From Bacteroidota bacterium (GTDB taxonomy: Bacteria; Bacteroidota; Rhodothermia; Rhodothermales; UBA10348), in contig JAJCYP010000049.1 in the NCBI GenBank assembly GCA_029262855.1, forward strand, positions 1 to 64,000: a stretch of 64,000 bases of DNA, given 5' to 3'. Within the stretch, counting starts at the first letter, position 1; every line of letters starts with the position of its first letter. This document shows positions 28,812 through 45,973 of this stretch, piece after piece. The translations under genes and the position numbers were made by a program. A model generated the notes under the pieces. The model did not search any database and was not told the origin of the DNA. It saw only the letters and a program-made list of their open reading frames with translations.

Positions 28812-28886
28812 CGGGGGTGCAAGGCGAAAATGGGTGTTGCGGAGCAGGCTCGACGCGGGGGTTTTGGACGTCCTCAACATATCGCC

Positions 28887-31658
28887 TTAAAACTTGTAGC
28901 TGAGTCCGAGGCTGATCCGCCGCGGGGACGAATACCAATCGGGACGCTGGAACCACTCGTCCAGGGAGTTCAGGCCGCCAACCCGGCTGCCTGTGGAACG
29001 GAAGAGCTCCTTATCGAGCGACTCCTCAGCGTTGCCCGATGAGGCATACACCGCGTTGGGCGTCTGCGTATCGAACAGGTTCTGAACCTGGAGGAACAGC
29101 TGGATGTCTTGGCCTTCGAACGGCGGCGTGAAGTACGCCCTGACATCGGTCGAGTACTGGAGCGGACGATCGGCGTTGTTTGGCAACGTGGATCGCACAA
29201 ACCCACGCAGTGTGGTGTAAGGCTCACCCGTCCGTAGGCGATTGATGAACGTCAGTGTCGTGCCGTCGAAGGGCCTGACGGTAATCGTGTTGGTCAGGAC
29301 GTGCCGTCTGTCCCAGTTCAGTCGGACCAGCGACAGAATCGCTTCCAGCCCACTCTCCTGGCGGCCGAAGGCCTCCCCCGGATCAGAGGACGTTCCCTCG
29401 GCGAACTGGAGCGTATAGTCCAGCGTCCAGCTGAGCGGTCCCTGTGACTGGTCGAAAAGCGACAGCGTCACTCCGCGGATCGTCCCAAAATCCCGATTGA
29501 TCCAACGAATGGCAAAGTCCCCATTCGGCGTACGGAGAATCTGCTGACCGGTCAGGTTTCTGACGTCTTTCGAGAAGATGGTCAGCTCCATCCCCAGATC
29601 GTCGGTGATACCCTGCTGCAGGCCAACCTCGAAGGACAGCGTCCGCTCGGGCTCGAGTTGGGCATTGCCAAACTGGTTCGTACTGGACTGAGGATTGATT
29701 TCGTACTCCGGATTCGTGTAGAGCAGGCTGAGCTGCGGAATCTGGAAGAACAGACCAGCCGAGAACCTCATGACCCCGGTTGACGAAATCGGAAAAGCGA
29801 TTCCGATGCGCGGACTTACCTGAAGCTCAGGATCCGCAGCCTCCCGGTTGGAAATGATATTTCCGGTCGGGACCTGCAGACCCGTGTTGGGATCCTCTGC
29901 CGTCTCCGGGATCTCTGTCAGATGGGCCTGACGCCAGTCCAGCGGAATGTCATAGTTCGAATTGAAGTAGTCAAACCGCAGTCCCGCATTCACGATCAAG
30001 CCCGTGAACTCCATCTTGTCCTGGAGGTAGGCGGCAAACTCGACCGGACTCGCATTCAGGCTGTTGTCGGAGAATACGTCCGGCGATGGCTGGGGCTGGA
30101 AGAGCGTCCTAGCCGACTTCTCGATTCCGAAAGACCGGTTGTCGAGGCCGTGAAAGCGAGCCTGAAGTCCCGCCTTCATCAGGTGAATGTTGTTCACCTG
30201 GCTGGAGAAGTCAGCCACCACCGTGTGAGTCTCTGTCAACTCATCCACCGTGAAGAGGTCGTTTCCTCCCACCGTAAACGCGTTAGCGCCCGTTAGGCTG
30301 CCGAGCCGCGGGCTCTGGTAACGTGAGTCTGTGGGCGTGTCGTACAGGTAGCTGTCGAACTTGTCCCGGAGATAGCTATACGAAATGTTACCGAAGGACC
30401 TTGCGCCGACCGTATACCGGAAACTCAGGATGTGGGTCTGGCTACCGAAGTAGCCCGTGTTCAGCCCGCTTGGGACGTACTTCGATCCGTGACTGTAGTT
30501 GTTGAACTGGCCGTCCTGCAGGAACAGATTGTATTCCAGCTTTGCCGTTTTGGTCAATTTGGCGGTGACCGTGGTGTTCAGGGATACGCGCTCATAGCCG
30601 CGCGTCACGAAGTCGCCAGTTCCGTTCGATTGGATGACCCACTGCGACCTGTCCTGCCCGGAGTTGAGTCCCTGGGAAGAATCAGACGGCACGAAGAGGT
30701 CGCGCATCACGTTGGACCCATCCTCGTTGATATACCGGGCCGTGGCCTGGAATCCGAGTTTGTCCTTGAGAATCGGGCCACCAATGGAAAGCTGAACGTC
30801 TGACTGGTTGTTGAAGTCCAGTGCGTCTCCGATGGAGACCGTCTCGGATTCAAAGTCGTCCACACTCAGGAATGAACCTGCCGGCGACGTCCGCTTGACG
30901 AACTCGGCCTCCCTGTCGGTCACATAGGAGCCGAGGTAGGCCAGAGCCGATCCCTTCCACTCGGTGGGTACATCCTTGGTTACAATATTGACGATGCCGG
31001 ACTGGGCCTGACCGTACTCGGCATTGAAGACTCCGGAGATGACCTCCAGACTCGACACCATGTTCTGCTCGACATCGAATGCAGCCTGATTGTTGAACGC
31101 GTTATTGATCGGGACGCCGTTCACGAGGTAGGCAACCTCACCGGAGCGGCCACCACGGAAGCGGCCATCCACGACACCGGCCTGCAGGTTCACCGCGTCG
31201 GCGATGCTCGTGACCGGTAGCGCTTCAAGCTGCTCAGAGTTGACCACGGCAGTCGTCGTCGTTCGGTCGACCTGGACGATGCCGCGCTCGGCCGTAATAA
31301 TGATCTCCTCACCCTCAAAGACCTCTTCGGTCAGGGTGAAGTCGACGCGGGACGTCTTGTCGACGATGACCTCAACGCCTTCTACAGTCTGCGTGGCGAA
31401 GCCGATAAAACTGGCCCGGACCGAGTAGGTGCCCGGCTTCACGCGCAGAATGATATAATTGCCGTCCAAATCCGTGACGGCTCCCTGGGTAGTCCCCTCT
31501 ATCGAAACGTTGACGCCGGGGAGAGTCTCTCCTGACACGTCAACAATGCGCCCGGCAATCTTGCCGTAGATGTCGCGGGGCGCGTCCCCGGCTTGAGCGG
31601 TCGGGGCAGCGAGTCCCGCCCAAAAAATCGCAAGGAGAAGCCAGCCTTTTCTCATCAT
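28887..31658 (-). CDS. TonB-dependent outer membrane receptor with carboxypeptidase-regulatory N-domain
   Basis: 923 residues; ATG 31658 chosen over a GTG 21 bp upstream. Signal peptide, then a CarboxypepD_reg-like domain (KIAGRIVDVSGETLPGVNVS, TDLDGNYIILRVKPG), a plug domain (SIADAVNLQAGVVDGRFRGG, YGQAQSGIVNIVTKDVPTEW), and a 22-strand type barrel ending in SLGLSYKF with the terminal aromatic. It should import a ligand, probably beta-glucan oligosaccharides given the neighbours. No SusD-like gene is adjacent, so it is not a standard SusCD pair. Lies between the CBM9-like gene and the large surface protein. Confidence 0.92.
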   Translation of the reverse strand: MMRKGWLLLAIFWAGLAAPTAQAGDAPRDIYGKIAGRIVDVSGETLPGVNVSIEGTTQGAVTDLDGNYIILRVKPGTYSVRASFIGFATQTVEGVEVIVDKTSRVDFTLTEEVFEGEEIIITAERGIVQVDRTTTTAVVNSEQLEALPVTSIADAVNLQAGVVDGRFRGGRSGEVAYLVNGVPINNAFNNQAAFDVEQNMVSSLEVISGVFNAEYGQAQSGIVNIVTKDVPTEWKGSALAYLGSYVTDREAEFVKRTSPAGSFLSVDDFESETVSIGDALDFNNQSDVQLSIGGPILKDKLGFQATARYINEDGSNVMRDLFVPSDSSQGLNSGQDRSQWVIQSNGTGDFVTRGYERVSLNTTVTAKLTKTAKLEYNLFLQDGQFNNYSHGSKYVPSGLNTGYFGSQTHILSFRYTVGARSFGNISYSYLRDKFDSYLYDTPTDSRYQSPRLGSLTGANAFTVGGNDLFTVDELTETHTVVADFSSQVNNIHLMKAGLQARFHGLDNRSFGIEKSARTLFQPQPSPDVFSDNSLNASPVEFAAYLQDKMEFTGLIVNAGLRFDYFNSNYDIPLDWRQAHLTEIPETAEDPNTGLQVPTGNIISNREAADPELQVSPRIGIAFPISSTGVMRFSAGLFFQIPQLSLLYTNPEYEINPQSSTNQFGNAQLEPERTLSFEVGLQQGITDDLGMELTIFSKDVRNLTGQQILRTPNGDFAIRWINRDFGTIRGVTLSLFDQSQGPLSWTLDYTLQFAEGTSSDPGEAFGRQESGLEAILSLVRLNWDRRHVLTNTITVRPFDGTTLTFINRLRTGEPYTTLRGFVRSTLPNNADRPLQYSTDVRAYFTPPFEGQDIQLFLQVQNLFDTQTPNAVYASSGNAEESLDKELFRSTGSRVGGLNSLDEWFQRPDWYSSPRRISLGLSYKF

Positions 31659-31768
31659 CTCGGTATCGGGTTGCCGCACACGCGGTCAGGGGAAACAGCA
31701 AAATACCCGAAGGCTGCGGGCCGGGCACAAAGCCCAGCCCGCAGCCCACGAGCACTTCCAAGCACCAC

Positions 31769-34003
31769 CTACTTCAGAAGCATCATGGATTTGGTCTGGG
31801 TGAATGCCGTGCCGGCATCCAGGCGGACCAAATACATTCCAGAGGTCAGGCTGACAGCATTGAACTGGACCTGATGACGGCCGGAAGCCATCATCTCTCC
31901 GTCAATCAGCGTGGCCACCTTCTGCCCGAGAACGTTGTAGACCGAGAGATGCACGTTCTGGGAAGAGGCCAGGTTGAAGTCGATTGTCGTCGATGGGTTG
32001 AACGGGTTGGGGTAGTTCTGTCCCAACGCGAAGCTCGCCGGCAGGTCGGACTCGCCTTCGTTTGCGGTCGGCGTGGCGCTTCCAGCCACGGCGACGGTCA
32101 TCCACATGGCAGGCGTATTCCACCAGCCACCGCCCGCGTTGGGCTTGGTTGACCACTGCATCTGCACGTCACGCGGATTCTGGCCATCGCCGTCGCCATC
32201 GTTCAGGGCAATGTTGAAGGGGATCAGCTTGACCGCATCCACAGCCGGCGGCACGAATGGCGAGTCGCCGGTCGAGCCAAACACAAAACTGTTCCACGGC
32301 ATGAGAGTCAGGAAGTTGTATCCGGTGGCGGTCTCAACGAAAACCGTTTTCGAGCTGGTGACCTCACCCTCGCCCTCTGCACCCGTAAGGGTGGAAACAA
32401 AGGTTGACACTTCGCCCGTGGCCAACCATGCGATCCGGAGCTGGTAATCCGCCTCGTCTCCGCGACCGTAGTCCTGGTGCGGAGAACCGGCGATAATCGA
32501 ACCGCCGTCCACGTCGCGGATGTCGTAGGATCCCCAGCCGAATTCCATGCTGTCGTATCCCCAGGTCTCGCAGCCATTACAGGCGCTGGTCCCGGGGTGA
32601 CGGGACAGGACGTCGTCGGTGATCTCCGCGTAGATGTAGATCTCGGAGTACTCGCGGTTGAATGCAACCCAGACGTCGGCGGACATGTCGTCGTCGCTAG
32701 CCGGCAGCGGGCCGTCAGCTGACCTGGCGTGGGACAGATTCACTCCGAACGGAGCGGCTCCGGCCGGGAATCCGTCTGGAGAAACCGTATCGGCCAGCAG
32801 GTTGTCGAAAATAGCGTCGGCATCAGGGGTCTCGATTTCCGCAATGAACGGCTGTACGGCGAGTTCACCGTTGGAAACCATGCCGCTACTGGCCGAGACA
32901 TCGGTGTTCTCAACACCGAACTGGCTCGTGCTCGAAACGGCGTAGTAGAGATCCATCGGAGCCATGGAGCCGTGTGGGACCTCAAAGGCGTGATCGAGTC
33001 CGAATTCGCTCGCGTTGAACGCGACCGATCCGAGTGCAGACAACTCGCCGGCCTCCAGGCGGGCCTGGGTGATTGGCGAGGTGTCTGCGTAGATCCTGTA
33101 CCCGCCGAATTCGGGATTGTGTGTCCACTCGACGCGGTTCGTAGCGCCATTCGCGGCGAAGGTCGCGCCTGACATCGCCGCAGGTGCACCTGCAGCGGCT
33201 GCAAGGTCGGTGCTGGAATCGCCGATGTAGACATCATCCATGAAGACGCCACCGCCTCCGCCATCGGCGAAGTCGTAGTGGATACCGAACCAGGAGACAT
33301 TGTTCCACTGGAATTCCTGCCATGCGGGGTCGCTGTCGAGTGCGTCGGCCGAACCGCAGCAACCAACGCCGAAACCGCCTGCCCAGGCACCGGTGTAGTG
33401 CCATCCTGCCTGCATCGCATCAAGGCTGCCTGCAGTGCGGGCATCCTCGAGAGCGGCGAGCGTGCTTGGGGGAAGCGGAATGGCCAGATCGTGCCACTGT
33501 CCGTCCTTGAGATCTTCTGGAATGAACCACTTCAGACGCATTTGCGGATCACCGGCGCCGGACTCCAGAGAAGCGCGGTCCTGACCACCTCCGATGGCAT
33601 CAAAGAAGCTGATGGACATACAGGCATCGCCCGTATCCGTGCAGACTCCACGGCCCGCCATCGCGGGGTCAACAAGCAGCTTAAGGTAGAGCGTCTTGGT
33701 GGCTGCTGGATCTTCGCTGACCATGGCGGACAGGTCGGCGCCGACGTCGATGGGCTCGAAGGCCAAGGAAACGGAGGCCCAATCGCCGTATGGGAATGAC
33801 AGCGCTTTGTTGCCGCTTGATCCGTCCACCGGATCGGCAACGACGCTGCCTTGATTCGCGGGAACGAGTACGTTCACGCCGTCGACGAAGAAGATGAATT
33901 CTTCTCCCAAATCGACCTGGGCGCTGACCGGAACCGCCCAGACAGCCATGATGGCCATCATAATAAGCGGGCTCAGCCAGCGACTGGTAGCCGTTAATCT
34001 CAT
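31769..34003 (-). CDS. Secreted CBM9-like protein with T9SS type A sorting domain
   Basis: 744 residues; start ATG 34003 is preceded by a strong AGGAGG 7-12 bases upstream, and the signal peptide follows (PLIMMAIMAVWAVPVSAQ). The first half is a beta-sandwich with VFMDDVYIGDSS (about 225-260) like carbohydrate-binding jelly rolls, followed by a Fn3-like unit; about 430-650 resembles the CBM9-like fold (DDDMSADVWVAFNREYSEIY, YAEITDDV, GYDSMEFGWG). The end (about 655-744) is a canonical T9SS sorting domain with LGQNYPNPFNPSTTIDF. Probably a surface glycan-binding protein. First gene of the operon that continues with the TonB receptor. Two LacI-like operators lie about 200 and 256 bp upstream. 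Confidence 0.85.
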   Translation of the reverse strand: MRLTATSRWLSPLIMMAIMAVWAVPVSAQVDLGEEFIFFVDGVNVLVPANQGSVVADPVDGSSGNKALSFPYGDWASVSLAFEPIDVGADLSAMVSEDPAATKTLYLKLLVDPAMAGRGVCTDTGDACMSISFFDAIGGGQDRASLESGAGDPQMRLKWFIPEDLKDGQWHDLAIPLPPSTLAALEDARTAGSLDAMQAGWHYTGAWAGGFGVGCCGSADALDSDPAWQEFQWNNVSWFGIHYDFADGGGGGVFMDDVYIGDSSTDLAAAAGAPAAMSGATFAANGATNRVEWTHNPEFGGYRIYADTSPITQARLEAGELSALGSVAFNASEFGLDHAFEVPHGSMAPMDLYYAVSSTSQFGVENTDVSASSGMVSNGELAVQPFIAEIETPDADAIFDNLLADTVSPDGFPAGAAPFGVNLSHARSADGPLPASDDDMSADVWVAFNREYSEIYIYAEITDDVLSRHPGTSACNGCETWGYDSMEFGWGSYDIRDVDGGSIIAGSPHQDYGRGDEADYQLRIAWLATGEVSTFVSTLTGAEGEGEVTSSKTVFVETATGYNFLTLMPWNSFVFGSTGDSPFVPPAVDAVKLIPFNIALNDGDGDGQNPRDVQMQWSTKPNAGGGWWNTPAMWMTVAVAGSATPTANEGESDLPASFALGQNYPNPFNPSTTIDFNLASSQNVHLSVYNVLGQKVATLIDGEMMASGRHQVQFNAVSLTSGMYLVRLDAGTAFTQTKSMMLLK

Positions 34004-34198: not shown

Positions 34199-34212
34199 TG
34201 AAAACCTTTTCA
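34199..34212. promoter_or_regulatory. LacI-type operator, copy 1
   Basis: TGAAAACCTTTTCA, a near-palindrome that differs by one centre base from the perfect palindrome TGAAAACGTTTTCA found upstream of the lacI-type gene at 44147-44160. It lies between the GH3 gene and the CBM9-like gene, about 196 bp upstream of the latter's start. The role is inferred from similarity between sites. Confidence 0.65.
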
Positions 34213-34225
34213 TCCGTTCCGCACT

Positions 34226-36391
34226 TTACGAAACGATAAAGGAAGGATCAACCCATTCTGAAAACCTTTTCATATTTTGAAAAAGTTCAAAATCTACCGC
34301 GGTATCTCCAACGCGGACACTGAACATTCCCTTCTCCAGTACGAATCCATCTCGGCCGTGAAAACCAATGACCCGGTCATCCAGGTCCAGGTCGATCACG
34401 ATTCGCCGGCCTGGTTCCAACTCGACTGACTGAAACGCCGCCAATCGCTCGACTCGAGGCGCAACCGAGGCGAAGTGGTCGCGAACGTAGGCCTGAACAA
34501 CCTCACGACCCGTTCGATCTCCCGCGTTAAAGAGCGTAACACTTGCCTTGACGCCCTCCCGCCCGGCAGAGACGGAAAGCGCTTCGACACGAAACGAGGT
34601 GTACGAAAGGCCGGCACCAAATCGCCATCGCGGCCTCCAGCCATCGAACGCATAATCGGGGCGAGCCCCGTATGATTTTCCGAGTCGATCGGGCAGTCGA
34701 TGGTCGTAGGGAATCACTTCTCCCGTCGACCTCGGATAGGTGAATGGGAGCTTGCCACAGGGATTGAACGTGCCCAGGAGCAGGTCCACAAGTGCGCCAG
34801 CTCCGAATGGACCCGGCCTCCCCGCCCAGATCACCGCGGCACAGTCGCGGGTCCAGTCTTCCAGCACGCGGGGCCGGTCGAAGAGCAGGACAGCGATGAC
34901 CGGCTTGCCGAGCGCCAGCATGCCTCGGGCGAATTCCTGCTGCTCGTCGTTCAGGCCCAGATCATCGATGTCTCCCGGCTTCTCCACCGTCGGTTTTTCG
35001 GCGAGGCACAGGACAATCACGTCGGCTGATTCAGGGGCTCGTCGATCTCCGACCACCTTGTCCCAGGCGGATACGATGGTCTCGGCATCCTTCGGGTAGT
35101 CCGCTGGGTTGTCTCCCTGCCACGAGTAGGACCAGGGTCCACTGAGCACCGGTGCAGAGTCGCAGCCGGGCCCGACAATAGCAACGGTGGTCTCCGGGCG
35201 CAGCGGCAGGACAGCGTCACGGTTCTCCAGTAGCACCAGACTCGCCGCCGCCGCCTCTCGGCTCACTCGAATGCGCTCGCGATCCGGGGGCAGTTCGACC
35301 GAAGGCAGTGGCGCCTCGAACAGACCGAGTCCCTCCTTCAGCCGCAGAATCCGCCTGACGGCATCGTCCACGCGGGAGAGGGGCACCTCGCCCGCCTCGA
35401 CCAACGACACCACGTGATCGGCGAACCCGAATTCGTGGGGCGTCATGCTCATGTCAATGCCGGCCAGTACCGCCATGCGGACGGCATCCCGAACCGACGG
35501 TGCAACCCGGTGAATCAGGTGCAGCTTGATCACGTCCTCCCAATCGGTCACCACGACCCCTTTGAAGCCAAGCTCAACCTTGAGCAGGTCGGTCAGGAGC
35601 GCCCGGCTGGCGTGCACAGGCTCGCCGTTGATATCGCCGGAGTTGACCATGACCGTTTCAACGCCGGCCTCCACGGCCGCCTTGAAGGGTGGCAGGTAGA
35701 TGTCACGGAGCAGGCCCTCTGGAATCCATGCCGTGGTCCGGTCTCGGCCCGTTGCAGGAGCTGAGTATCCCAGGAAGTGCTTGGCACAGGCGGCCACCCC
35801 CACCACATCCTGATGCCCGAGTACCGCGGCCGCGCCCATTCGCTTTGCCAGGTGAACGTCCTCGCCAAAGGTCTCCACGAAACGGGACCAGCGTGGCTCT
35901 CGGCCAACGTCCAGCACCGGCGAGAAATTCCACGGAACGCCGCACGCCGCGAGTTCCTGGGCCGTGATTCTGGAGGCAGCCCGCGCCAACTCGGGCCGAA
36001 AGGTCGCGGCCAGTCCCAGATTGTGCGGGAACAGGGTCGCCCCTTTGGTATAGCCGGACCCGTGAACGGCGTCCAGACCGAAGACAATCGGAATCCCGAG
36101 CCGGGATTCGTTGACGGCTACATGCTGGATCTCCTCAAGGAGTGCCCGCCACTCTCCGAAATCGAGTGGCCTGCCAGCCACATTGAATACGCTGCCGACG
36201 CCCACCTCGGCGACGGCATGGCGGAGGCGGCCCATGTCCAGCACGGCCGGCCCCTTCGGGTCCATCCCCGGATCGCACAGCGAGTGAATCGTGACCTGCG
36301 TCATCTGCCCCGCTTTCTCACGCAGGGTCATGCGTGCCAGTAGGCTCTCAATCCGGGCGTGGCCCTCGGCTCCAGCCTCCGAAGTGCCCAC
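34226..36391 (-). CDS. GH3 family beta-glucosidase
   Basis: 721 residues with GTG 36391 as start; an in-frame TTG at 36469 overlapping the symporter stop is an alternative. Either way no signal peptide is seen, so the enzyme is probably cytoplasmic. N-terminal TIM barrel begins at ARIESLLARMTLREKAGQMT, with KHFLGYS and the catalytic nucleophile Asp283 in GVVVTDWEDV. The second domain (PETTVAIVGPGCDSAP) and a C-terminal Fn3-like domain (EVVQAYVRDHFASV) complete the usual GH3 three-domain layout. It should cleave glucosides such as laminaribiose imported by the symporter next to it. The last codons overlap a LacI-like operator copy. Confidence 0.9.
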   Translation of the reverse strand: MGTSEAGAEGHARIESLLARMTLREKAGQMTQVTIHSLCDPGMDPKGPAVLDMGRLRHAVAEVGVGSVFNVAGRPLDFGEWRALLEEIQHVAVNESRLGIPIVFGLDAVHGSGYTKGATLFPHNLGLAATFRPELARAASRITAQELAACGVPWNFSPVLDVGREPRWSRFVETFGEDVHLAKRMGAAAVLGHQDVVGVAACAKHFLGYSAPATGRDRTTAWIPEGLLRDIYLPPFKAAVEAGVETVMVNSGDINGEPVHASRALLTDLLKVELGFKGVVVTDWEDVIKLHLIHRVAPSVRDAVRMAVLAGIDMSMTPHEFGFADHVVSLVEAGEVPLSRVDDAVRRILRLKEGLGLFEAPLPSVELPPDRERIRVSREAAAASLVLLENRDAVLPLRPETTVAIVGPGCDSAPVLSGPWSYSWQGDNPADYPKDAETIVSAWDKVVGDRRAPESADVIVLCLAEKPTVEKPGDIDDLGLNDEQQEFARGMLALGKPVIAVLLFDRPRVLEDWTRDCAAVIWAGRPGPFGAGALVDLLLGTFNPCGKLPFTYPRSTGEVIPYDHRLPDRLGKSYGARPDYAFDGWRPRWRFGAGLSYTSFRVEALSVSAGREGVKASVTLFNAGDRTGREVVQAYVRDHFASVAPRVERLAAFQSVELEPGRRIVIDLDLDDRVIGFHGRDGFVLEKGMFSVRVGDTAVDFELFQNMKRFSEWVDPSFIVS
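34259..34272. promoter_or_regulatory. LacI-type operator, copy 2 (inside the 3' end of GH3)
   Basis: A second exact copy of TGAAAACCTTTTCA, 60 bp from copy 1 (about six helical turns), located in the last codons of the GH3 gene (NMKRFSE). Two sites on the same helix face would suit LacI-family looping or cooperative binding upstream of the CBM9/TonB operon. Confidence 0.6.
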
Positions 36392-36462
36392 CTTCCCGTT
36401 GGCCCCATGCCCCCCGGTCGCCTGCGCGCTCGCTCCCGCCGTCGCCTCCGCGCTCGCGGCGC

Positions 36463-38064
36463 CTACCAAAAGAGGCCCACCACGCCAAACGTCAGGATGA
36501 GAAGCAGGACCGAGAGGACGCGGTAGTTCTTGTACCACGCCACGTCCTTCAGCCGGACGGTGTCCTCGCGGTAGAGTGCCGGGGTCCAGACCAACTCCTG
36601 AGCCTGCGCCGACGGTGGTTCGGTCATCAGGGAAACAACGATGATCACCGCCGAACAGAACAGGAACAGGATGGGCGCCACATAGAGGAACTGAAGATCG
36701 AATTCGATGATGGGGTTCATCTCCAACTTGGTCATCACGCGCAGCGCAAAGGCTGGGACGGTGACAATGAAACCAGCAATGAGTCCTGCAAACGCCCCGG
36801 TGCCGTTGGCCCGTTTCCAGAATATCCCGACCACAAAACAGGCCACGATCGGAGGACTGATATAGGCCAGTACTTCCTGGAGGTACTCCCACAGATTCTC
36901 GAAGCGGGCAATCTGTGGCGCCCATAAGACGCCCAATACCATGACAATCACCGTCGCCCAGCGGCCGATGGTCACCAACTTCCTGTCCGGCGTGTCGGGA
37001 CGCAGCTTCTTGACAAAGTCCATCGTGACCATGGTCGAGACCGCGTTCAGCGTCGAGTCGATGCTGGACATGATCGCAGCCACGAGCGCCACCAGCATGA
37101 TCCCGCGAATGCCGGTCGGCAGCAGGTCAAAAAGAAGGGTCGGAAATACCGTATCAGGATTGGTGAGATTCGGATAGAGCAGGATGGCGAACGTGCCCGG
37201 CAGCACCATGATGAAGAGCACCGGGATCTTGAGCAGGCCCGCAAACAGCGAACCCCATCGTCCGTGGTCGAGGGACTTCGACCCCAGCGTTCGCTGAACC
37301 ATGAACTGGTTATTGCACCAGAAATAAATCCCCAGAAGCGGGAGTCCCGTGACAAGACCCAGCCAGGGAAGTGTCGGGTCGTCCAGGGGTCTGATCAAGC
37401 TGAGCTTCTCGGCCGGGACGCCGGCAAGTACAGCGTCCCAGGACCCCACCTTGTCGAACGCAATGACCGAAATTACCACCGATCCGATCAGGAGCAGGAC
37501 CGCCTGAATCGCGTCTGTATAGACCACGGCCTTCAACCCTCCCACTGCTGTATAGGCACCGGCAAGCACCGCGAGAACCACGATGGAGTGCCACAGCGCG
37601 ATGCCGGGGTAAGCCAACTGAACCACCAGAGCGGCGGCGTAGAGACCACCGGCCGTCTCAAGCAGCACGTTCCCGACGATCACCACCGACGCCATGTAGT
37701 AGCGCGATCGCTGGTCGAATCGTTTTTCCAGGAACTCCGGCATCGTGTAGACCTTGCTCTTCAGATAGAAGGGCAGGAACACGAAGATGAACAGCACCAG
37801 GACTACGACTGCGAACCACTCGTAGTTATATACCGCGATTCCAGATGAGTAGGCCGCTCCGGACAGGCCGATCAGTGTGCTTGAGGAGATATTGGAGGCG
37901 AAGAGCGAAAAGCCCACCAGCGGCCAGATCAGCGACCGGCCCGCGAGGAAATAGTCCTCCGAACTCTCCGTTTTCCTGCCAACCCAGACCCCGATGGCGA
38001 TGATGAGGACGGTGTAGGCGCCGACCATGTAGAGATCGAGCGCAGAAAGTTGGAATCCGTCCAT
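36463..38064 (-). CDS. Sodium:solute symporter (SSS family)
   Basis: 533 residues from ATG 38064 (MDGFQLSALDLYMVGAYTV), with about 14 predicted membrane helices. Family motifs: GRSLIWPLVGFSLFASNISS, GGLKAVVYTDAIQAVLLLIG, and SSIDSTLNAVSTMVTMDFV at the sodium-site helix. Relatives (SGLT-like) couple sodium to sugar uptake across the inner membrane. It is followed by the GH3 enzyme, which overlaps or abuts it, so it likely imports glucose or short laminari-oligosaccharides. Divergent from the GH81 gene with only 57 bp between starts. Confidence 0.9.
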   Translation of the reverse strand: MDGFQLSALDLYMVGAYTVLIIAIGVWVGRKTESSEDYFLAGRSLIWPLVGFSLFASNISSSTLIGLSGAAYSSGIAVYNYEWFAVVVLVLFIFVFLPFYLKSKVYTMPEFLEKRFDQRSRYYMASVVIVGNVLLETAGGLYAAALVVQLAYPGIALWHSIVVLAVLAGAYTAVGGLKAVVYTDAIQAVLLLIGSVVISVIAFDKVGSWDAVLAGVPAEKLSLIRPLDDPTLPWLGLVTGLPLLGIYFWCNNQFMVQRTLGSKSLDHGRWGSLFAGLLKIPVLFIMVLPGTFAILLYPNLTNPDTVFPTLLFDLLPTGIRGIMLVALVAAIMSSIDSTLNAVSTMVTMDFVKKLRPDTPDRKLVTIGRWATVIVMVLGVLWAPQIARFENLWEYLQEVLAYISPPIVACFVVGIFWKRANGTGAFAGLIAGFIVTVPAFALRVMTKLEMNPIIEFDLQFLYVAPILFLFCSAVIIVVSLMTEPPSAQAQELVWTPALYREDTVRLKDVAWYKNYRVLSVLLLILTFGVVGLFW

Positions 38065-38121
38065 CTGGGTCAGGTTTGAATGGTTGGCGGGGTATCTTCC
38101 GAAGAATAGGGTTAAAGAGGT

Positions 38122-40365
38122 GTGTTGAAAAAGGCCACGGTTTTCTTGGGTGCAATCTTGCTTTGCTTCTCGGGCACAGGATGCTCCGACGAGGAGTCGG
38201 CGGTTGTGCCGTGGGGTGCGGGATCGTACACCACCGAACGGCCTCGCGGGCTCTCGCCGCCACGAAACGAGGACGGAACCGCAGCGGTACCGATGACCTC
38301 TCCCGGACTGGATAAGCCGGCGAGCACCAACGACTGGTGGACCTCCATTCTTTGGCCTCACAACGGCCCGTGGTCGGCCGACATGTGGGCCCATCCGTTG
38401 CTGCTCCGGGCGGAGTCGGGTGGACTCCGAATCGGATACCCCACGGAATACGAAGTGACGCCCGACAGATACTTCGCCGAACCCATCCATGACCTCCTCT
38501 TGGGCATAGACAGCCTGAACGCGAAGGAAACCCGTGTGGCTGATTATGGCGATTGGACGGTCACGGCCGAATGGCCAGCAGGCGATTCGTCCATGCGCGC
38601 CACGTTCGGCAGGGGGCTCCCCTTTGTCTGGGTCGAAGGCCCGGGCGCACGGGTTGAACTGCTCGGCGAGGGGAGCATCCAAAACACGGGCGAATCGGCG
38701 GTCATTCGAATAGGGGATCGTCTCTACGCCGCCATGCTCCCTACCGGGTCTGTCTGGCAGACCGAGGACGATGCCATAACGGCGGATGTGGATCGATACA
38801 CCGTCGCCGTGCTCCCCGATGACGCGGCGTCAACTCTCGACCTTTTCCGGGCCCACGCCTTCAACGTCGTGCGGGATACCCGGGTATCCTGGGAATACGA
38901 TCCGGCGGAGTCCGCAGTCACGACCACGTTCTCGTTCGATATCGAGTCGGTCGATCCCGGCGCGCAGCCCCCGGTCACGGGAACCCTCTCGGCCCTCTAT
39001 CCCCATCAGTGGCTCAACAGTCCGGCCACGCAAATCGGGCTGGGGTATGACTCCCCCCGGGGTCGCATGAAATTGGTATCCGGGTCCGCCTTCACCACCA
39101 GGGTCACCTATGGCGGTGTCCTGCCACGCCTGCCCGACCTGTGCCTCAGCGGCGGCGACGACCGTCTCCGGTCACTCCTGGCAGAGACGTTCGCCCGCGA
39201 CGATGCCTTCAGCGGCAAGTTGTCGCGGGATGACACGTACTGGTCCGGAAAGGCGGTTGGCAGGCTGTCCGAACTGATCTCGCTGGCGAAGGCCGTTCGC
39301 ATGGATGAGGCCGCGGACCGGTGGACGGACCAACTCAGAGAACGGACCGAGTCCTGGCTGTCCGCCGAGGACACCACTCGCTACTTTTACTACGATGAAC
39401 GCTGGAAGACACTGGTCGGATATCCGGCGTCGTTCGGGTCGGACTCGGATCTGAACGATCACGATTTCCACTACGCCTATCACATCCAGGGCGCGGCGGC
39501 GCTGGCACGTGCGGACTCCGCCTGGGGCGCGGCGTGGGGTCCCATGGTAGAACTGCTGATCCTCGATGCAGCCAATCCGGATCGCAGCGATTCGAGGTTT
39601 CCTTTTCTGCGGAGCTTCGACCCGTACGCCGGCCACTCAATCGCCGGTGGGCACACCAACAAGGTGGGCGGGTACGACCGGGAATCCAGTTCGGAGTCCA
39701 TGAACTTCTCGGCCGCGCTGATTCACTGGGGAATGGAACGCGGCGACACGGCCATCCGAGACCTCGGAATCTGGATGTACGCCACCGAGCGCACGACCAT
39801 CGAACAGTACTGGTTTGACGTTGATGACAACGTCTTCCCTGAAGACTTTGAGCACTCGACGAATGCCATCGTCTGGGGCCGCGGCGGCGCCTATGAGACA
39901 TGGTGGTCGCCTGAGCCGGCCTACATACACGGCATCAATTACCTGCCTCTCACGGGCGCTTCCTTCTATCTGGGCAGGCACCCGGACTATGTCCGCCGGA
40001 ATGACGCGGAGCTCCAGCAGGCGACCGCCGGGAGACCACCCCTCTGGCAGGATTTGTCGACGATGTTCTACGCCCTGGCAGATCCTGTGGAGGCGCTGCG
40101 ACGCTACGAGGACTTCGCCCCGGACTACGAGCCGGAAGAGGGAGAGAGCCCTCCGCACACGTATCACTGGCTGGCAGCACTCAACCAGGTCGGGACCGTG
40201 GACACCTCGGTGACGGCCAATATCCCAGCATACCGGGTCTTCCACAATGGCAAGCGGCGGGCCTATGCCGCATACAATCCCCGATCCCGGCCGAGTCGCG
40301 TCCGGTTCTCGGACGGCGCCGAGTTCCGGGTTCCGCCCAAGACCCAACTGACGGTCTGCCGGTAG
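38122..40365 (+). CDS. GH81 endo-beta-1,3-glucanase lipoprotein
   Basis: 747 residues from GTG 38122, preceded by AAAGAGG; a TTG follows as the next codon. Lipobox LLCFSGTGC makes it an envelope lipoprotein. GH81 signatures: STNDWWTSILWPHNGPWSAD near the N-terminus, HPLLLRAESGGL, then DPYAGHSIAGG and ESSSESMNFSAALIHWG, which holds the catalytic glutamates (Glu521 and Glu525 are the candidates). GH81 enzymes hydrolyse internal beta-1,3-glucosidic bonds of laminarin or curdlan. Convergent with GH16, 45 bp apart at their 3' ends. Confidence 0.9.
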   Translation: MLKKATVFLGAILLCFSGTGCSDEESAVVPWGAGSYTTERPRGLSPPRNEDGTAAVPMTSPGLDKPASTNDWWTSILWPHNGPWSADMWAHPLLLRAESGGLRIGYPTEYEVTPDRYFAEPIHDLLLGIDSLNAKETRVADYGDWTVTAEWPAGDSSMRATFGRGLPFVWVEGPGARVELLGEGSIQNTGESAVIRIGDRLYAAMLPTGSVWQTEDDAITADVDRYTVAVLPDDAASTLDLFRAHAFNVVRDTRVSWEYDPAESAVTTTFSFDIESVDPGAQPPVTGTLSALYPHQWLNSPATQIGLGYDSPRGRMKLVSGSAFTTRVTYGGVLPRLPDLCLSGGDDRLRSLLAETFARDDAFSGKLSRDDTYWSGKAVGRLSELISLAKAVRMDEAADRWTDQLRERTESWLSAEDTTRYFYYDERWKTLVGYPASFGSDSDLNDHDFHYAYHIQGAAALARADSAWGAAWGPMVELLILDAANPDRSDSRFPFLRSFDPYAGHSIAGGHTNKVGGYDRESSSESMNFSAALIHWGMERGDTAIRDLGIWMYATERTTIEQYWFDVDDNVFPEDFEHSTNAIVWGRGGAYETWWSPEPAYIHGINYLPLTGASFYLGRHPDYVRRNDAELQQATAGRPPLWQDLSTMFYALADPVEALRRYEDFAPDYEPEEGESPPHTYHWLAALNQVGTVDTSVTANIPAYRVFHNGKRRAYAAYNPRSRPSRVRFSDGAEFRVPPKTQLTVCR

Positions 40366-40410
40366 CGGACAATCAGCCTCCGCGCAGCTTTCCGGAGTAT
40401 CGCCTCACCA

Positions 40411-43038
40411 TCAGTTGAGGACGGTTACCGGGCGGACAAGGCGACGTCCCTCGACGGTGGCGGTCAGGATGTAGGTGCCACTGGCGAGGCTGCCCACGGG
40501 GACGGAGAGCGTGGTCTCGCCCGCAGGAAGCCGCCTGATTTCACGGCTGACCCGTCGCCCGAAGAGGTCCGTGAGTTCGAGCGTCACCTCGGCCGGACCC
40601 GGGATGGTGATGGGCAGACGGAATTGGTCGCGGGCCGGATTTGGATAGGCGGCGCCCAGGACGAGAACCCCCGGAAGCTCCCGGGCAATAGCCGTGTCGG
40701 TCGGATCCACGAAGGTCAGGCTGGCGATCTCGAAGCCGCCCGATCTGATGTCGACCCTGAGTTCCTGAACGCCCGCAGCCAGGGGCACCTCGCCCAGCGT
40801 CACTGTCTGCCAGGCAGAATTGGTTGCAGCCACCGTCAAGGGATCGCCCACTTGCTGCTGATCCATCTCCAGTTCGAGTGCGCCATCCGTGGTGGCTCGC
40901 ACCCTCGCATCGACCCTGTAAGTCCCGGCGCTGATGACATTGACCGTGTACCCGATCCACTCTCGGGTTGCGATGTCGGTCACATAAAAGCCCTCAGTGG
41001 CATCGAATGCTAAATCAACCGGCTCCGGCCGAAGGGTGCCGTCTCCCGAAGTCAGGTCCAGGTGCGCATCACCGAGATCGAAATTCGCCATCTGGATCAT
41101 GCCGGGGATCACGGCAGGACGCATCAGATAGGGCGCCCGGACGCACGCTGCACCGACCCGCACGGACGCAGCGGTACTGGTTGCCGTATTGCCACGGGCA
41201 TCGAACGCCTCGACGCTGATCGAATAGCATCCTGCGGAAGCCGCACTGAGGGTCGTTTCGAACGGCGGCGATGTGAGGGTGGCCACGACCCCGATGCCCT
41301 GTTTGACGATGACTCCTGCCAGGTCCTGATCGGCGTCCGAAGCGGATGCCGAGACCACGACATCTCCGCCATCTTCGATGGTCGCTCCGTCCTGCGGCGA
41401 ATCCAGCGTTATGAGGGGCGAGGCACCCGTCTCAACGAAGGTGATTCGATCGATTTCGAACCCGGCCTGCCTGGGCTGAAAACGGAGGACGTGCACGCCG
41501 CCCGGCAAGGCGATATCCACCAGCGAAGAGACTGTCCAATCGGACTCCGGTCCCACTGTCAGGGAGGCCACAGCCGTCCCGTCGATCTGCAGTTCGAAGC
41601 GTCCAGGATCGCTGGCTGACGCCGTTGTCGTTCTGGCCAGGGCGTCCAGTCTGTAGATGCCTTCCTGGATCTCGACGGTGTATTCCGCCCAGTCGCGGCG
41701 CCCGATGCTCGTCATGAAGAGGCCGCCGGATCCATCGTCGTAGTAGCTGATCTCCACGGCGTCCTCGCTGCGGAAGCCTCTGACCTGATTGAGTCCGTCC
41801 AGCTCCGAGTAGGCTACGCCATTGCCGCCCAGATCGTAGTACTCCATTTCAAGGACGCCGGGCACCGGGTGCGGCGAGATGGTCGCCGGAGCCTGTCCAC
41901 ATCCCGCCCCGACCTCCAGCGGCATCGAGGGCGTCTGCCTCGGCCAACCCATCGTGTCCACGGCCCGGGCTGAGATGGCATAGCATCCGGACTGGGCGTT
42001 TTGAAGCGTGGTTTCCAGGGATTCCGCCGCTCCCTGAGCGATCGGGACCTCTCCCTGAAGCAGGGCCAGAACACCGATCTGTCCGTCGGGGTCAGTTGCG
42101 TGCGCCGAAAGCATCAGAGAACCTCCGGCTTCGATGCTCGCCGGGACCGGCCCAAGTGTGACTTCGGGAAGCGTCCCGGCGTCCTCATACACCCTGACGT
42201 AGTCTACCAGCATCTGGGTCGGGAAGGCGGCCGCGTCGATGGTCGGGCCGCCCCACTGGCCGCCCACGGCGACGTTCAGCAGGACGTGAAACGGTTGATC
42301 GAACGGCCATTCCGCCCAGCCCTGCTGTGGATTCTGGTACTCGCCAATCTGATTCGTTCCTGGGACCCTGAGGTCAACCAGTTGGTCGTCAACGTAGAAG
42401 CGAATCTGACGCGGCTCCCACTCCACCGCGTAGATGTGAAAAGAGGTGCTCACAAAGCCGGGCTCCATGGACCCGGTCGGGTTGTTGCCGAGCGGGCTGT
42501 TCCGGTTCTTCAGGTGCAGCGAAGAGTGGACCCTCCCCTGGTCCTTCCCGACATGCTCGGCGATGTCGATCTCGCCGCTGGCAGGCCAGATTCCGTACGG
42601 CGACTCTTCGGAGAGCATCCAGATGGCTGACCAGGAACCCACCCCCGCAGGAAGCTGTGCGCGCGCCTCGATTCGGCCGTACGTCCACGACGCCCGATCT
42701 CGAGTGGTAATCCTAGCGGATGTGTAGTTCGACCCCGAGAACGACTCTGCCCGCGCCTCAATGATCAGGTGATCTCCGTTGACGCGGACGTTCTCCGGGC
42801 GAGCCGTGTAGTACTGGGCCTCCTGATTCCCCCAACCACCGGCACCAAGATCGTGGTCCCACTTGGCTGGATCGGGCGAGCCCGTGTAGTCGAATTCGTC
42901 GGACCAGACAAGCTCCCAGGTCTGGGCCGCTGCGTGCTGGGGACTCATGGCGGCCACGACTCCGAGGGCCAGCAGGAAGAGAGCGCGGACTGCCTGGCGG
43001 GGAGTTCTCGATGCTGGTGGCAAGGGCGCTGGTGACAT
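40411..43038 (-). CDS. GH16 laminarinase with CBM6-like modules and sorting domain
   Basis: 875 residues; ATG 43038 gives a signal peptide ending QHAAAQ. Order: GH16 catalytic domain (about 40-265) with GEIDIAEHVG, where Glu156 is the nucleophile, Asp158 assists and Glu161 is the acid/base; Ig-like domain; CBM6/35-like module (VPGVLEMEYYDLGGNGVAYS); second Ig-like domain; second CBM6-like module (VIPGMIQMANFDLGDAHLDL); and a T9SS-type C-terminal domain (GAAYPNPARDQFRLPI, ASGTYILTATV). It should be secreted through T9SS and degrade laminarin outside the cell. Lies 54 bp downstream of lacI on the same strand and is probably co-transcribed. Confidence 0.92.
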   Translation of the reverse strand: MSPAPLPPASRTPRQAVRALFLLALGVVAAMSPQHAAAQTWELVWSDEFDYTGSPDPAKWDHDLGAGGWGNQEAQYYTARPENVRVNGDHLIIEARAESFSGSNYTSARITTRDRASWTYGRIEARAQLPAGVGSWSAIWMLSEESPYGIWPASGEIDIAEHVGKDQGRVHSSLHLKNRNSPLGNNPTGSMEPGFVSTSFHIYAVEWEPRQIRFYVDDQLVDLRVPGTNQIGEYQNPQQGWAEWPFDQPFHVLLNVAVGGQWGGPTIDAAAFPTQMLVDYVRVYEDAGTLPEVTLGPVPASIEAGGSLMLSAHATDPDGQIGVLALLQGEVPIAQGAAESLETTLQNAQSGCYAISARAVDTMGWPRQTPSMPLEVGAGCGQAPATISPHPVPGVLEMEYYDLGGNGVAYSELDGLNQVRGFRSEDAVEISYYDDGSGGLFMTSIGRRDWAEYTVEIQEGIYRLDALARTTTASASDPGRFELQIDGTAVASLTVGPESDWTVSSLVDIALPGGVHVLRFQPRQAGFEIDRITFVETGASPLITLDSPQDGATIEDGGDVVVSASASDADQDLAGVIVKQGIGVVATLTSPPFETTLSAASAGCYSISVEAFDARGNTATSTAASVRVGAACVRAPYLMRPAVIPGMIQMANFDLGDAHLDLTSGDGTLRPEPVDLAFDATEGFYVTDIATREWIGYTVNVISAGTYRVDARVRATTDGALELEMDQQQVGDPLTVAATNSAWQTVTLGEVPLAAGVQELRVDIRSGGFEIASLTFVDPTDTAIARELPGVLVLGAAYPNPARDQFRLPITIPGPAEVTLELTDLFGRRVSREIRRLPAGETTLSVPVGSLASGTYILTATVEGRRLVRPVTVLN

Positions 43039-43092
43039 GGTTCTTGTATACAATTGGGCGGCCATCGCCACCGATCCACGGGCCGAATCAGA

Positions 43093-44100
43093 TCAGCCCG
43101 CGAGCGGCGTCGAAGTCGATTCACGGACCACGAGTTCCACGGGCAGATTCACCGTCCGACCGGGGCTCTCATCGCTCAGGCGAATGCGCGAAATCAGCAT
43201 TTCGAGTGCCTGCATCCCCACTTCCCGAATGGGAACCGAAAGCGTGGTGAGACTCGGCCTCGCGAAGGCGGCGCTGGGTACGTTGTCGAACCCGATAATG
43301 GACACGTCTTCCGGGATGCGTACTCCCGAAGCCATCAGTTCCGAGGCCAGGCCGAGGGCGCAGTAGTCGTTCGCCACGACAACAGCCGTTGGCAGATCCT
43401 CCATGGCCAGCAGCGTTGTAGCGGCCGCCCTCCCCGCCTCCTGGACGTAGCCGGCCTGCAGAATGGTATAGTCCTCGAGCCCTGCTGCGTCCATGGCAGC
43501 CACAAAACCTATGCGCCGCTCCCTGGCGTCAAACGCGCGCTCCGGACCTGCCAGATAAGCCAGTTTCCTGTGGCCGAGTTCTATCAGGTACTCCGTGGCG
43601 GCACGCGTTCCACCCAGGTTGTCGAAGTTGATGATGTCAACCAACTGACGGTCCCTCGGGGCTACCGGCGTATTGACAAAGACGGTGGGAACGTCCGTCA
43701 CCAGATTCAATTGCCGCGGTGTCAATTGGGGGGCCATTACGATGAGCCCGTCCACCCTCTTGTACACCGACTGCACCGAGGACTGCCACTCCGAGGCGCG
43801 GTCATGCGAGGCCGAGATGAGGAGGAAGAAATCGTTGTTTTTGGCCACCTCATCCAGGCCCGTCAGAAACTCGGAAAAGAACTCGCCGGAGACGTGAGGC
43901 AGCAGGATCCCGATCCCGCCGGTCGACTTCATCAGCAGCGACCGCGCATTTGGATTCGGGATATAGCCGAGATCAACAGCCGCCTTCTCTACGCGCTCCC
44001 GCTTATCTTGGGCCACCGCACAGGTTTTGTTCAGAACACGAGAAACTGTCGAGATCGAAACGCCCGCCTGCCTGGCCACGTCTCGAATGGTACTCGCCAT
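43093..44100 (-). CDS. LacI-family transcriptional regulator of the glucan locus
   Basis: 335 residues. N-terminal HTH with hinge: TIRDVARQAGVSISTVSRVL and NARSLLMKST. The rest is a periplasmic-binding-protein-like sugar sensor (GIGILLPHVSGEFFSEFLTG, DGLIVMAPQ, VVVANDYCALGLASELMASG, DVSIIGFDNV). It likely represses the GH16 gene downstream and other glucan genes when an inducing sugar is absent. A perfect 14-bp palindrome lies 47 bp upstream of its start, in the divergent region shared with the SGNH gene, which suggests autoregulation. Confidence 0.93.
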   Translation of the reverse strand: MASTIRDVARQAGVSISTVSRVLNKTCAVAQDKRERVEKAAVDLGYIPNPNARSLLMKSTGGIGILLPHVSGEFFSEFLTGLDEVAKNNDFFLLISASHDRASEWQSSVQSVYKRVDGLIVMAPQLTPRQLNLVTDVPTVFVNTPVAPRDRQLVDIINFDNLGGTRAATEYLIELGHRKLAYLAGPERAFDARERRIGFVAAMDAAGLEDYTILQAGYVQEAGRAAATTLLAMEDLPTAVVVANDYCALGLASELMASGVRIPEDVSIIGFDNVPSAAFARPSLTTLSVPIREVGMQALEMLISRIRLSDESPGRTVNLPVELVVRESTSTPLAG

Positions 44101-44146
44101 TGCGGTTTTTTGGGATGTCCCCGATCAGGGCTGTGAAAACGGGCCG

Positions 44147-44160
44147 TGAAAACGTTTTCA
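44147..44160. promoter_or_regulatory. LacI-type operator (perfect palindrome)
   Basis: TGAAAACGTTTTCA is a perfect 14-bp palindrome with a central CpG, typical for LacI-family operators. It lies between the divergent lacI-type gene (start 44100) and the SGNH hydrolase gene (start 44180). A preceding half-site (GTGAAAACG) occurs at 44132-44140. Near-identical sites occur at 34199 and 34259. Confidence 0.75.
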
Positions 44161-44179: not shown

Positions 44180-45973
44180 GTGGCCGTACAAACGCAGGAC
44201 AAATCGGGAGCGGGAACCCAAGGTTTTCGATACGGAGTATTCGCGGTGGTCGCGACCCTGCTCCCCATTGCGGCCATCCTCCTGATCGAGTTGGGCCTGC
44301 GGGCACTCGGGGTGGCGGACCGGCAGACTCAGGTATTCGTTGCCGCCGATGAGGCGGGAGATTTTCTGGCGCTGAACCCGGACTATGTCGCCCGCTACTT
44401 CGACGGGTTTACCCCCGGAGTCCCGTTCACGCCTTTTCAGGCCAAGAAGGGCCCTTCGACCTTCCGCGTCGTTGTCCTTGGCGGTTCCACCACGGCCGGT
44501 TTCCCGTACCGGTTCTATCACGGGTTTCCGGGGCGACTTGCCAGAGAGCTGGAGGCAGCCCGGTTCGGACAACGCGTTGAGGTAGTGAACCTCGGCCTGT
44601 CGGCCGTAAACTCCTACACAGTGCTGGATCTGGCGCGCGCGGCTCTGGACTACGAACCCGACGCCCTGGTCATCTACGCGGGGCACAACGAATACTACGG
44701 AGCATTCGGGACCGGGTCAAACGAGGCCGGGATCGGCGGCGCGCCCTGGCTGAAGCACCTCGTTATTCGCCTCCGCCGAACCGTGCTGTATACCTTGGTG
44801 GAGTCCCTGTTCAGGGATCCGCCAACACTTGGAGGTTCCGAGCGCACGCTCATGGCGCAGGTTGTCAGGGATGCGGACATCAGGGCCGGAGGCGAGGTCT
44901 TTGAGGCCGGCATCCGGCAGTTCGAGTCCAACATGGGCCGTGTGCTGGGATTGGCCGAGGAGGCTGAGGTGCCGGTGCTCATCGGGACACTCGCCTCCAG
45001 CCTGGCAGGACAGCCACCACTGACAGACGACCCCGAAGCGCAGAGCGCCTTTGAACTGGGGCTTGGGCTCCTGGCCAAAGGCGATTGGGATTCTGCCCGG
45101 GTGGCCCTGGAGCGGGCCCGTGAACTGGATGGCCTGCGGTTCAGGGCTCCCGCCGCTGTCAACCGTTGGATCCGCCGCGAAGCGCCTACTCTCGGCGCCA
45201 CGGTTGTGGACATTGAGGGGTCGTTCCGAAACGATTCACCCGGTGGGATCGAGGGGGGCGATCTGTTTACCGACCATCTGCATCCGAACGCGCGCGGCTA
45301 TCGCATCATGGCATCGTCCTTCCGGGAGCACCTGGGCGAGACGGCCACGGCCCTGACCATTGAGACGGATCAAACCCTGGATGCGATGGACGATGCGCAC
45401 GCCAGACTGTTGATCAGCCGGCTTCTGGGTGACTATCCGTTCACCAAGGGCGCCACCGACCGCGAGGTCACGACGGCTTACGAAAGCCTGCTGCAACTAG
45501 CTACAAAGGCCGGTCTGGGCGACTCCCTCGCCGTTCTTGTCATCCGCGGCGCGGCCGCATTCCCCACTGCCCAATTGCGGCTTTCAGAGATCCTCCGCGC
45601 CCAAGGAGACACGCTCGCCTCACTGCGGAGCTACCGTTCCCTCTTGTCGTGGCAGCCATTCAACGAGTCGCTTGAAAGACGCGTCGTCGAGTTTGGCCTG
45701 CCGAATGCGCGGGCCGATGCCGAGACCGACCGCATTGCCCTGGCGGCTGTCTCAAAGGACCCGTCCCTCTTCAATCTGAATGCGCTGGCGGCGACGCGGC
45801 TCCGTCGTGGCCTTCTCGCAGATGCTGAACGGGTCCTTGCCCGCGCCGAAACGCTGGAGCCCGATGACCCCACCATGCTCTTCAACCGGGCTCGCCTCTT
45901 GATCCAGCAGGGCGACACCCTCGCGGCACGGGAGTATTTCGTCCGGTATCAGGCTGCCCGCAGCTCCGACTGA
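44180..45973 (+). CDS. SGNH/GDSL-like hydrolase with C-terminal TPRs
   Basis: 597 residues from GTG 44180. One N-terminal membrane helix (VFAVVATLLPIAAILLIELG). SGNH blocks: nucleophile Ser in VVLGGSTTAGFP, Gly in NLGLSAVNSY, Asn in GHNEYYG, and Asp/His in DHLHPN. A TPR-like helical tail (about 480-597) follows. Members act as esterases or O-acetyl-polysaccharide deacetylases in the periplasm. It diverges from lacI across a shared operator, so it may be part of the same regulon; a link to glucan deacylation is a guess. Confidence 0.85.
   Translation: MAVQTQDKSGAGTQGFRYGVFAVVATLLPIAAILLIELGLRALGVADRQTQVFVAADEAGDFLALNPDYVARYFDGFTPGVPFTPFQAKKGPSTFRVVVLGGSTTAGFPYRFYHGFPGRLARELEAARFGQRVEVVNLGLSAVNSYTVLDLARAALDYEPDALVIYAGHNEYYGAFGTGSNEAGIGGAPWLKHLVIRLRRTVLYTLVESLFRDPPTLGGSERTLMAQVVRDADIRAGGEVFEAGIRQFESNMGRVLGLAEEAEVPVLIGTLASSLAGQPPLTDDPEAQSAFELGLGLLAKGDWDSARVALERARELDGLRFRAPAAVNRWIRREAPTLGATVVDIEGSFRNDSPGGIEGGDLFTDHLHPNARGYRIMASSFREHLGETATALTIETDQTLDAMDDAHARLLISRLLGDYPFTKGATDREVTTAYESLLQLATKAGLGDSLAVLVIRGAAAFPTAQLRLSEILRAQGDTLASLRSYRSLLSWQPFNESLERRVVEFGLPNARADAETDRIALAAVSKDPSLFNLNALAATRLRRGLLADAERVLARAETLEPDDPTMLFNRARLLIQQGDTLAAREYFVRYQAARSSD

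Follow-up and report, generated by a model that had tools for sequence, protein, structure and literature searches.

The locus described here raises the question of whether one LacI-family regulator controls both the glucan hydrolase genes around it and a nearby operon for a secreted cargo protein, a TonB-dependent receptor and a PorV-family protein. In the window, by which we mean the whole stretch of 64,000 nucleotides that was analysed, a sequence-only reading had placed three near-identical sites at 34199, 34259 and 44147, and all three are present at these positions (O2, O3 and O1, respectively; Table 1). A scan of the 4.74-Mb genome with the 14-bp motif revealed no random spread: exact matches to TGAAAACCTTTTCA or TGAAAACGTTTTCA were confined to O1, O2 and O3, and the backward control gave none. 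Across the 64-kb window no further match with up to two mismatches was found besides these three, and the window count of 6 (both strands counted per site) compares with a mean of 0.31 and a maximum of 4 in shuffled sequences. Single-mismatch matches occur at two places in the genome (C4:90415 and C23:1934), each deep within ORFs, and two-mismatch matches lie inside ORFs, except for one (L014) and perhaps a second (L015) at an ORF start.

Table 1. Predicted operators and genes of the cluster, with positions in the window.
Feature	Position	Strand	Remarks
Operator O1 (predicted)	44147..44160	.	Perfect palindrome TGAAAACGTTTTCA, CG centre, in lacI promoter
Operator O2 (predicted)	34199..34212	.	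TGAAAACCTTTTCA, CC centre; promoter-proximal copy, cargo/TBDR operon; homologous sites in relatives
Operator O3 (predicted)	34259..34272	.	TGAAAACCTTTTCA, CC centre; 60 bp further upstream than O2
LacI-family regulator, 335 aa, proposed repressor	43093..44100	-	PF00356 68.8 bits, PF13377 131.6 bits
GH16 glucanase-like protein, CBM35 and T9SS sorting domain	40411..43071	-	
T9SS-sorted cargo with CBM9-like region, first operon gene	31769..34003	-	PF18962 41.5 bits
TonB-dependent receptor	28887..31679	-	CarboxypepD_reg and Plug; below SusC/RagA cut-off
1149-aa operon protein	25431..28880	-	No Pfam match
PorV/PorQ-family outer-membrane protein, operon member	24384..25418	-	NF033709 149 bits, cut-off 90
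Peptidylprolyl-isomerase-like protein, probable last operon gene	22915..24375	-	All matches below curated cut-offs
GH3 glucosidase, upstream of cargo operon	34226..36925	-	Contains O3; without operator of its own
GH81	38122..40365	+	C-terminal domain matched; no operator
Divergent SGNH/GDSL-TPR gene	44180..45973	+	Shares the lacI intergenic region

The regulator itself has a LacI helix-turn-helix and a periplasmic-binding-protein-like domain, both over cut-off, and in an alignment of 14 orthologues the residues P48, N49, A52 and L55 of its hinge-helix motif PNxxARxL are invariant. The GH16 gene starts 21 bp past lacI on the same strand and is probably co-transcribed with it. The second putative transcript is a minus-strand run of five genes from the cargo gene to that for the peptidylprolyl-isomerase-like protein, with gaps of 6–89 bp, which we take as the likely boundaries of the operon. 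The C-terminal sorting domain PF18962 is over cut-off in both the cargo and GH16 proteins. In the label CBM9/TonB/PorV given earlier to this operon, two terms need qualifying: the CBM9 match of the window's cargo protein is weak (E 0.003, below cut-off), CBM9_1 being good in some cargo orthologues (best E 8.7e-12), and ‘PorV’ is better read as the PorV/PorQ family. The receptor does not reach the level of the SusC family (TIGR04056, 74.3 bits against a cut-off of 368) and there is no SusD match among the scanned operon proteins, which sets the operon apart from a classical SusC/SusD polysaccharide utilisation locus. About 190 residues ahead of the catalytic domain of the GH3 protein, and the N-terminal half of GH81, are without a Pfam match.

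O1 lies 46 bp ahead of the start codon of lacI (ATG, 44100) and approximately 20 bp ahead of the divergent ORF that begins at 44180; on the minus strand it follows a −10-like TATTTT at a distance of 2 bp. A palindrome upstream of the regulator's own gene is kept in relatives, as expected of autoregulation: among relatives, 20 lacI promoters have the operator at the same position, with a CTTGCG-like box and a TAnnnT box directly ahead of it, so the repressor would cover the transcription start. The divergent SGNH/GDSL-TPR gene, which is possibly also under LacI control, is a neighbour kept in about 13 loci of relatives. For the cargo gene, the listed start (TTG 34144) is probably wrong and was re-assigned to ATG 34003, because a GGAGG precedes this codon and the translation gives a fitting signal peptide. 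O2 and O3 then lie upstream of the likely start codon by approximately 203 bp and 263 bp, respectively, farther than most LacI-family sites. Both copies of TGAAAACCTTTTCA do lie upstream of the cargo operon, as had been proposed, with the qualification that the copy at 34259 overlaps the GH3 gene, falling in the last codons of the minus-strand ORF 34226–36925. Between O2 and O3 a TTGATC-17-TAAAGT arrangement can be read by eye, and the pair probably brackets the promoter of the cargo operon. With a generic sigma-70 scan neither of the two window regions gave a promoter, and TTGATC-17-TAAAGT was not reported, so the window promoters are read by analogy; a generic terminator scan was uninformative. 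The cargo operon of many relatives has one or two sites and the paired form recurs with a spacing of 41–58 bp, the downstream operator of such pairs adjoining a −10-like stretch.

On these grounds O1–O3 are very probably operators of the neighbouring LacI. We put a probability of about 0.85 on the reading that this protein represses the lacI-GH16 transcript and the cargo/TBDR/PorV-family operon through the three sites, and that a glucan oligosaccharide relieves the repression. Without inducer, LacI dimers would occupy O1, in the region where the lacI-GH16 transcript starts, together with O2 and O3 around the cargo-operon promoter, and so both transcripts are proposed to be repressed. The proposed inducer is a small glucan oligosaccharide that the secreted hydrolases set free and the TonB receptor takes in; once bound to it, LacI would leave the DNA, and binding, uptake and GH16 would be turned on. 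We infer the binding of LacI to DNA, repression as opposed to activation, and the inducer. Relief by a glucan oligosaccharide is most likely by analogy with GlyR3 and laminaribiose; GH16, GH81 and GH3 together appear to point to a β-1,3-glucan such as laminarin, and laminarin as the inducer is a guess from gene content.

How much of the cluster is covered can be judged from the distribution of the sites. In the window genome strict sites would serve two promoters only, those of lacI-GH16 and of the cargo operon, GH16 being counted as covered because it lies 21 bp downstream of lacI. The GH3 and GH81 genes have no site of their own within two mismatches, so that the proposal of one regulator for hydrolases, receptor and cargo together stands for the receptor, the cargo and GH16, and is not supported here for GH3 and GH81. 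Orthologous GH3 genes in relatives do carry a site. The sites of relatives also precede genes for GH16, GH94, transporters of the MFS, GPH and SSS types and other T9SS proteins, targets that would fit a role in sugar use. In a genome of the same genus (G001) the operator is ahead of a GH94-type phosphorylase (L113:6239-9028), no homologue of which turned up in the genome of the window, where the split GPH transporter homologue lacks an operator-like site. In another relative (G016) a strict site lies 175 bp before the gene of a 1062-aa TPR-CHAT protein (L141:6011), for which a connection with sugars is not apparent. The LacI family includes regulators that can act on a global scale, both activating and repressing, CcpA being one of them. 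This precedent, together with sites at genes without a clear sugar role such as the one for the CHAT-TPR protein, is what favours the view that the regulator is an activator, or a wider catabolite-type regulator, and not a local repressor induced by glucan. We consider this unlikely, since the window genome has strict sites at two promoters only, relatives have 1–7 sites per genome, and an operator just downstream of a −10-like box fits repression.

Somewhat less probable still is that the main role of the site at lacI is in autoregulation and in control of the divergent SGNH-TPR gene, a conserved neighbour, whilst the pair at 34199 and 34259 is a weak or non-functional remnant. The distance of O2 and O3 from the ATG and the location of O3 in GH3 coding sequence are consistent with such a remnant, but pairs persist at the same operon in relatives (G002, G011–G013, G016, G017, G019, G021, G023 and G025) despite diverged flanks. 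A second pair, with 58-bp spacing, is present in G002 on a short contig (C477, L112:191-262), as if duplicated or mis-assembled. The spacing does not carry the further meaning once attached to it, namely that 60 bp places O2 and O3 on the same face of the helix: with 10.5 bp to the turn it amounts to 5.71 turns, and 13 pairs, spaced by 41–60 bp, show no common phase (Rayleigh R 0.22), which leaves same-face binding unsupported. Looping is also doubtful. The 335-aa LacI ends where the PurR-type core ends, with the PurR match reaching residue 329, and it seems to lack the tetramerising tail of E. coli LacI; with no residues past the PurR-like core, inference from length makes DNA looping by a LacI tetramer unlikely.

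A third alternative, that the sites are really bound by another LacI paralogue and the local LacI is just a neighbour, starts from the fact that the genome has five LacI-family genes and that the general operator shape is common to the family. Directly upstream of four of the five stands a clear palindrome, and no two of these are the same. The distinct palindromes at the promoters of L006, L008 and L010 (TCGAAACGTTTCGA, TGTAATCGTTTACA and TGTAAGCGCTTACA), three of the four other paralogues, argue against this alternative; the fourth, L009, has no clear palindrome upstream, and the argument does not extend to it. Homologues that are more distant and differ in the recognition helix (Sphingomonas, VASVSRALN) carry TGTAACCGGTTACA. 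The different palindromes of paralogues and distant homologues tie TGAAAASSTTTTCA to the LacI at 43093–44100. Across genomes, moreover, the sites follow the orthologue of the local LacI, and paralogues alone are insufficient, so we regard another binder as very improbable. The palindromes of L006, L008 and L010 in turn predict three further regulons.

The evidence that the local LacI and the sites travel together comes from the order as a whole. Orthologues with 44–70% identity are present in many genomes of the Rhodothermales, and TGAAAASSTTTTCA (TGAAAA-SS-TTTTCA) is found beside them across the order and in 34 of 60 relatives. Among these 60, a site was present in 29 of the 31 genomes with an orthologue and in 5 of the 29 without (P = 1.1e-9). 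With the orthologue threshold of 250 bits then applied to the 54 genomes of the order outside the first set, a site was found in 10 of 15 with an orthologue and 1 of 39 without (P = 1.2e-6); both Fisher P values overstate independence because the genomes are related. The association is also visible within one genus (g6), where G013, G017 and G022 each have the orthologue and four sites and G020 and G024 have neither. Exceptions are two genomes with an orthologue and no strict site (G040 and G059) and five without a strong orthologue that have 1–3 sites. The five held-out orthologue genomes without a site score 253–257 bits and have none near lacI, and the operator is therefore probably restricted to a closer subclade. 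Genus g12, guessed to be Rhodothermus, has no TGAAAASSTTTTCA site. Of 101 unique sites, 91 are close to the 5′ end of an ORF with 200 aa or more; for random positions the share is 24%. Co-occurrence, phylogenetic footprinting and the paralogue controls thus bear out the predicted link of lacI with the T9SS-cargo/TonB/PorV-family operon. A chance repeat can be dismissed: a 14-bp AT-rich palindrome may arise randomly, and the backward control does occur in 3 of the 114 genomes of the order, but the motif occurs in 45, co-occurs with the orthologue and has its sole exact matches in this genome at O1–O3.

The closest characterised analogue is GlyR3 of Clostridium thermocellum, a LacI-family autorepressor of β-glucanase genes that is released by laminaribiose (PMC5483248). 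Both systems combine such a regulator with a β-glucanase cluster and a 14-bp palindromic operator near the transcription start, and release by a β-glucan disaccharide, demonstrated with laminaribiose for GlyR3, is proposed here. GlyR3, however, belongs to a Gram-positive host, controls celC-glyR3-licA and manB through the operator TGAACGCGCGTACA, and has neither the TonB receptor nor the T9SS cargo of the window cluster. CelR of Thermotoga maritima (PMC3750489) is likewise a LacI-family regulator of glucan and β-glucoside enzymes, with cellobiose as its inducer, but it works with ABC transporters in place of TonB receptors and in another phylum. Within the same order, the passages available from a study of Rhodothermus marinus (PMC6987092) describe a LacI, Rmar_1067, beside T9SS-sorted hydrolases and a TonB receptor; that locus is a xylan cluster with SusC/SusD and an ECF sigma factor, and those passages report no operator at it. 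A literature search found no paper that brings together polysaccharide utilisation and LacI in Rhodothermales.

Elsewhere in the order, other families have the orthologue or its site at the head of a different conserved operon (L088, L091, L092 and L102), which encodes a short T9SS cargo, two barrel-like proteins, a lipoprotein-like protein, a CBM30/SGBP-like protein and a GH2-like TIM-barrel hydrolase. The LacI orthologue thus seems to have kept its operator while some targets changed. We suggest, tentatively and at somewhat short of even odds, that in the Rhodothermales a LacI with an asymmetric CC/GG-centred operator is the main switch of a SusD-less glycan system, inducing jointly a T9SS-secreted binder, a TonB receptor and a PorV-family protein where Bacteroidota usually rely on SusR, HTCS or ECF switches, and that the regulator has been re-used for other operons in other families. 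For a little-studied bacterial group the proposed regulon offers a testable, order-wide unit of glycan uptake, with T9SS cargo and receptor under one switch.

The local regulon is new and the kind of switch familiar, resembling the LacI-family local regulons surveyed by Ravcheev et al. (2014; PMC4052901), for example BglR for β-glucosides, in autoregulation and even palindromes; the word ‘Bacteroidetes’ has no match in the text of that survey. The one unusual feature is the operator centre. A CG pair in the middle is typical of LacI-family operators, though not obligatory. The survey counts it for 1173 of its 1303 regulators, whereas the 101 unique sites here divide into 73 CC/GG, 24 CG and 4 GC, so that this orthologue group, its centre being relaxed or shifted, is one of a minority. 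Centres containing A or T are rare, are not enriched and do not track the orthologue. Sites that mostly lack the CG centre lend themselves to testing how the hinge helix of LacI recognises the central base pairs of an operator. The TGAAAACGTTTTCA string, which has the CG centre, also occurs in a paper on Streptococcus thermophilus.
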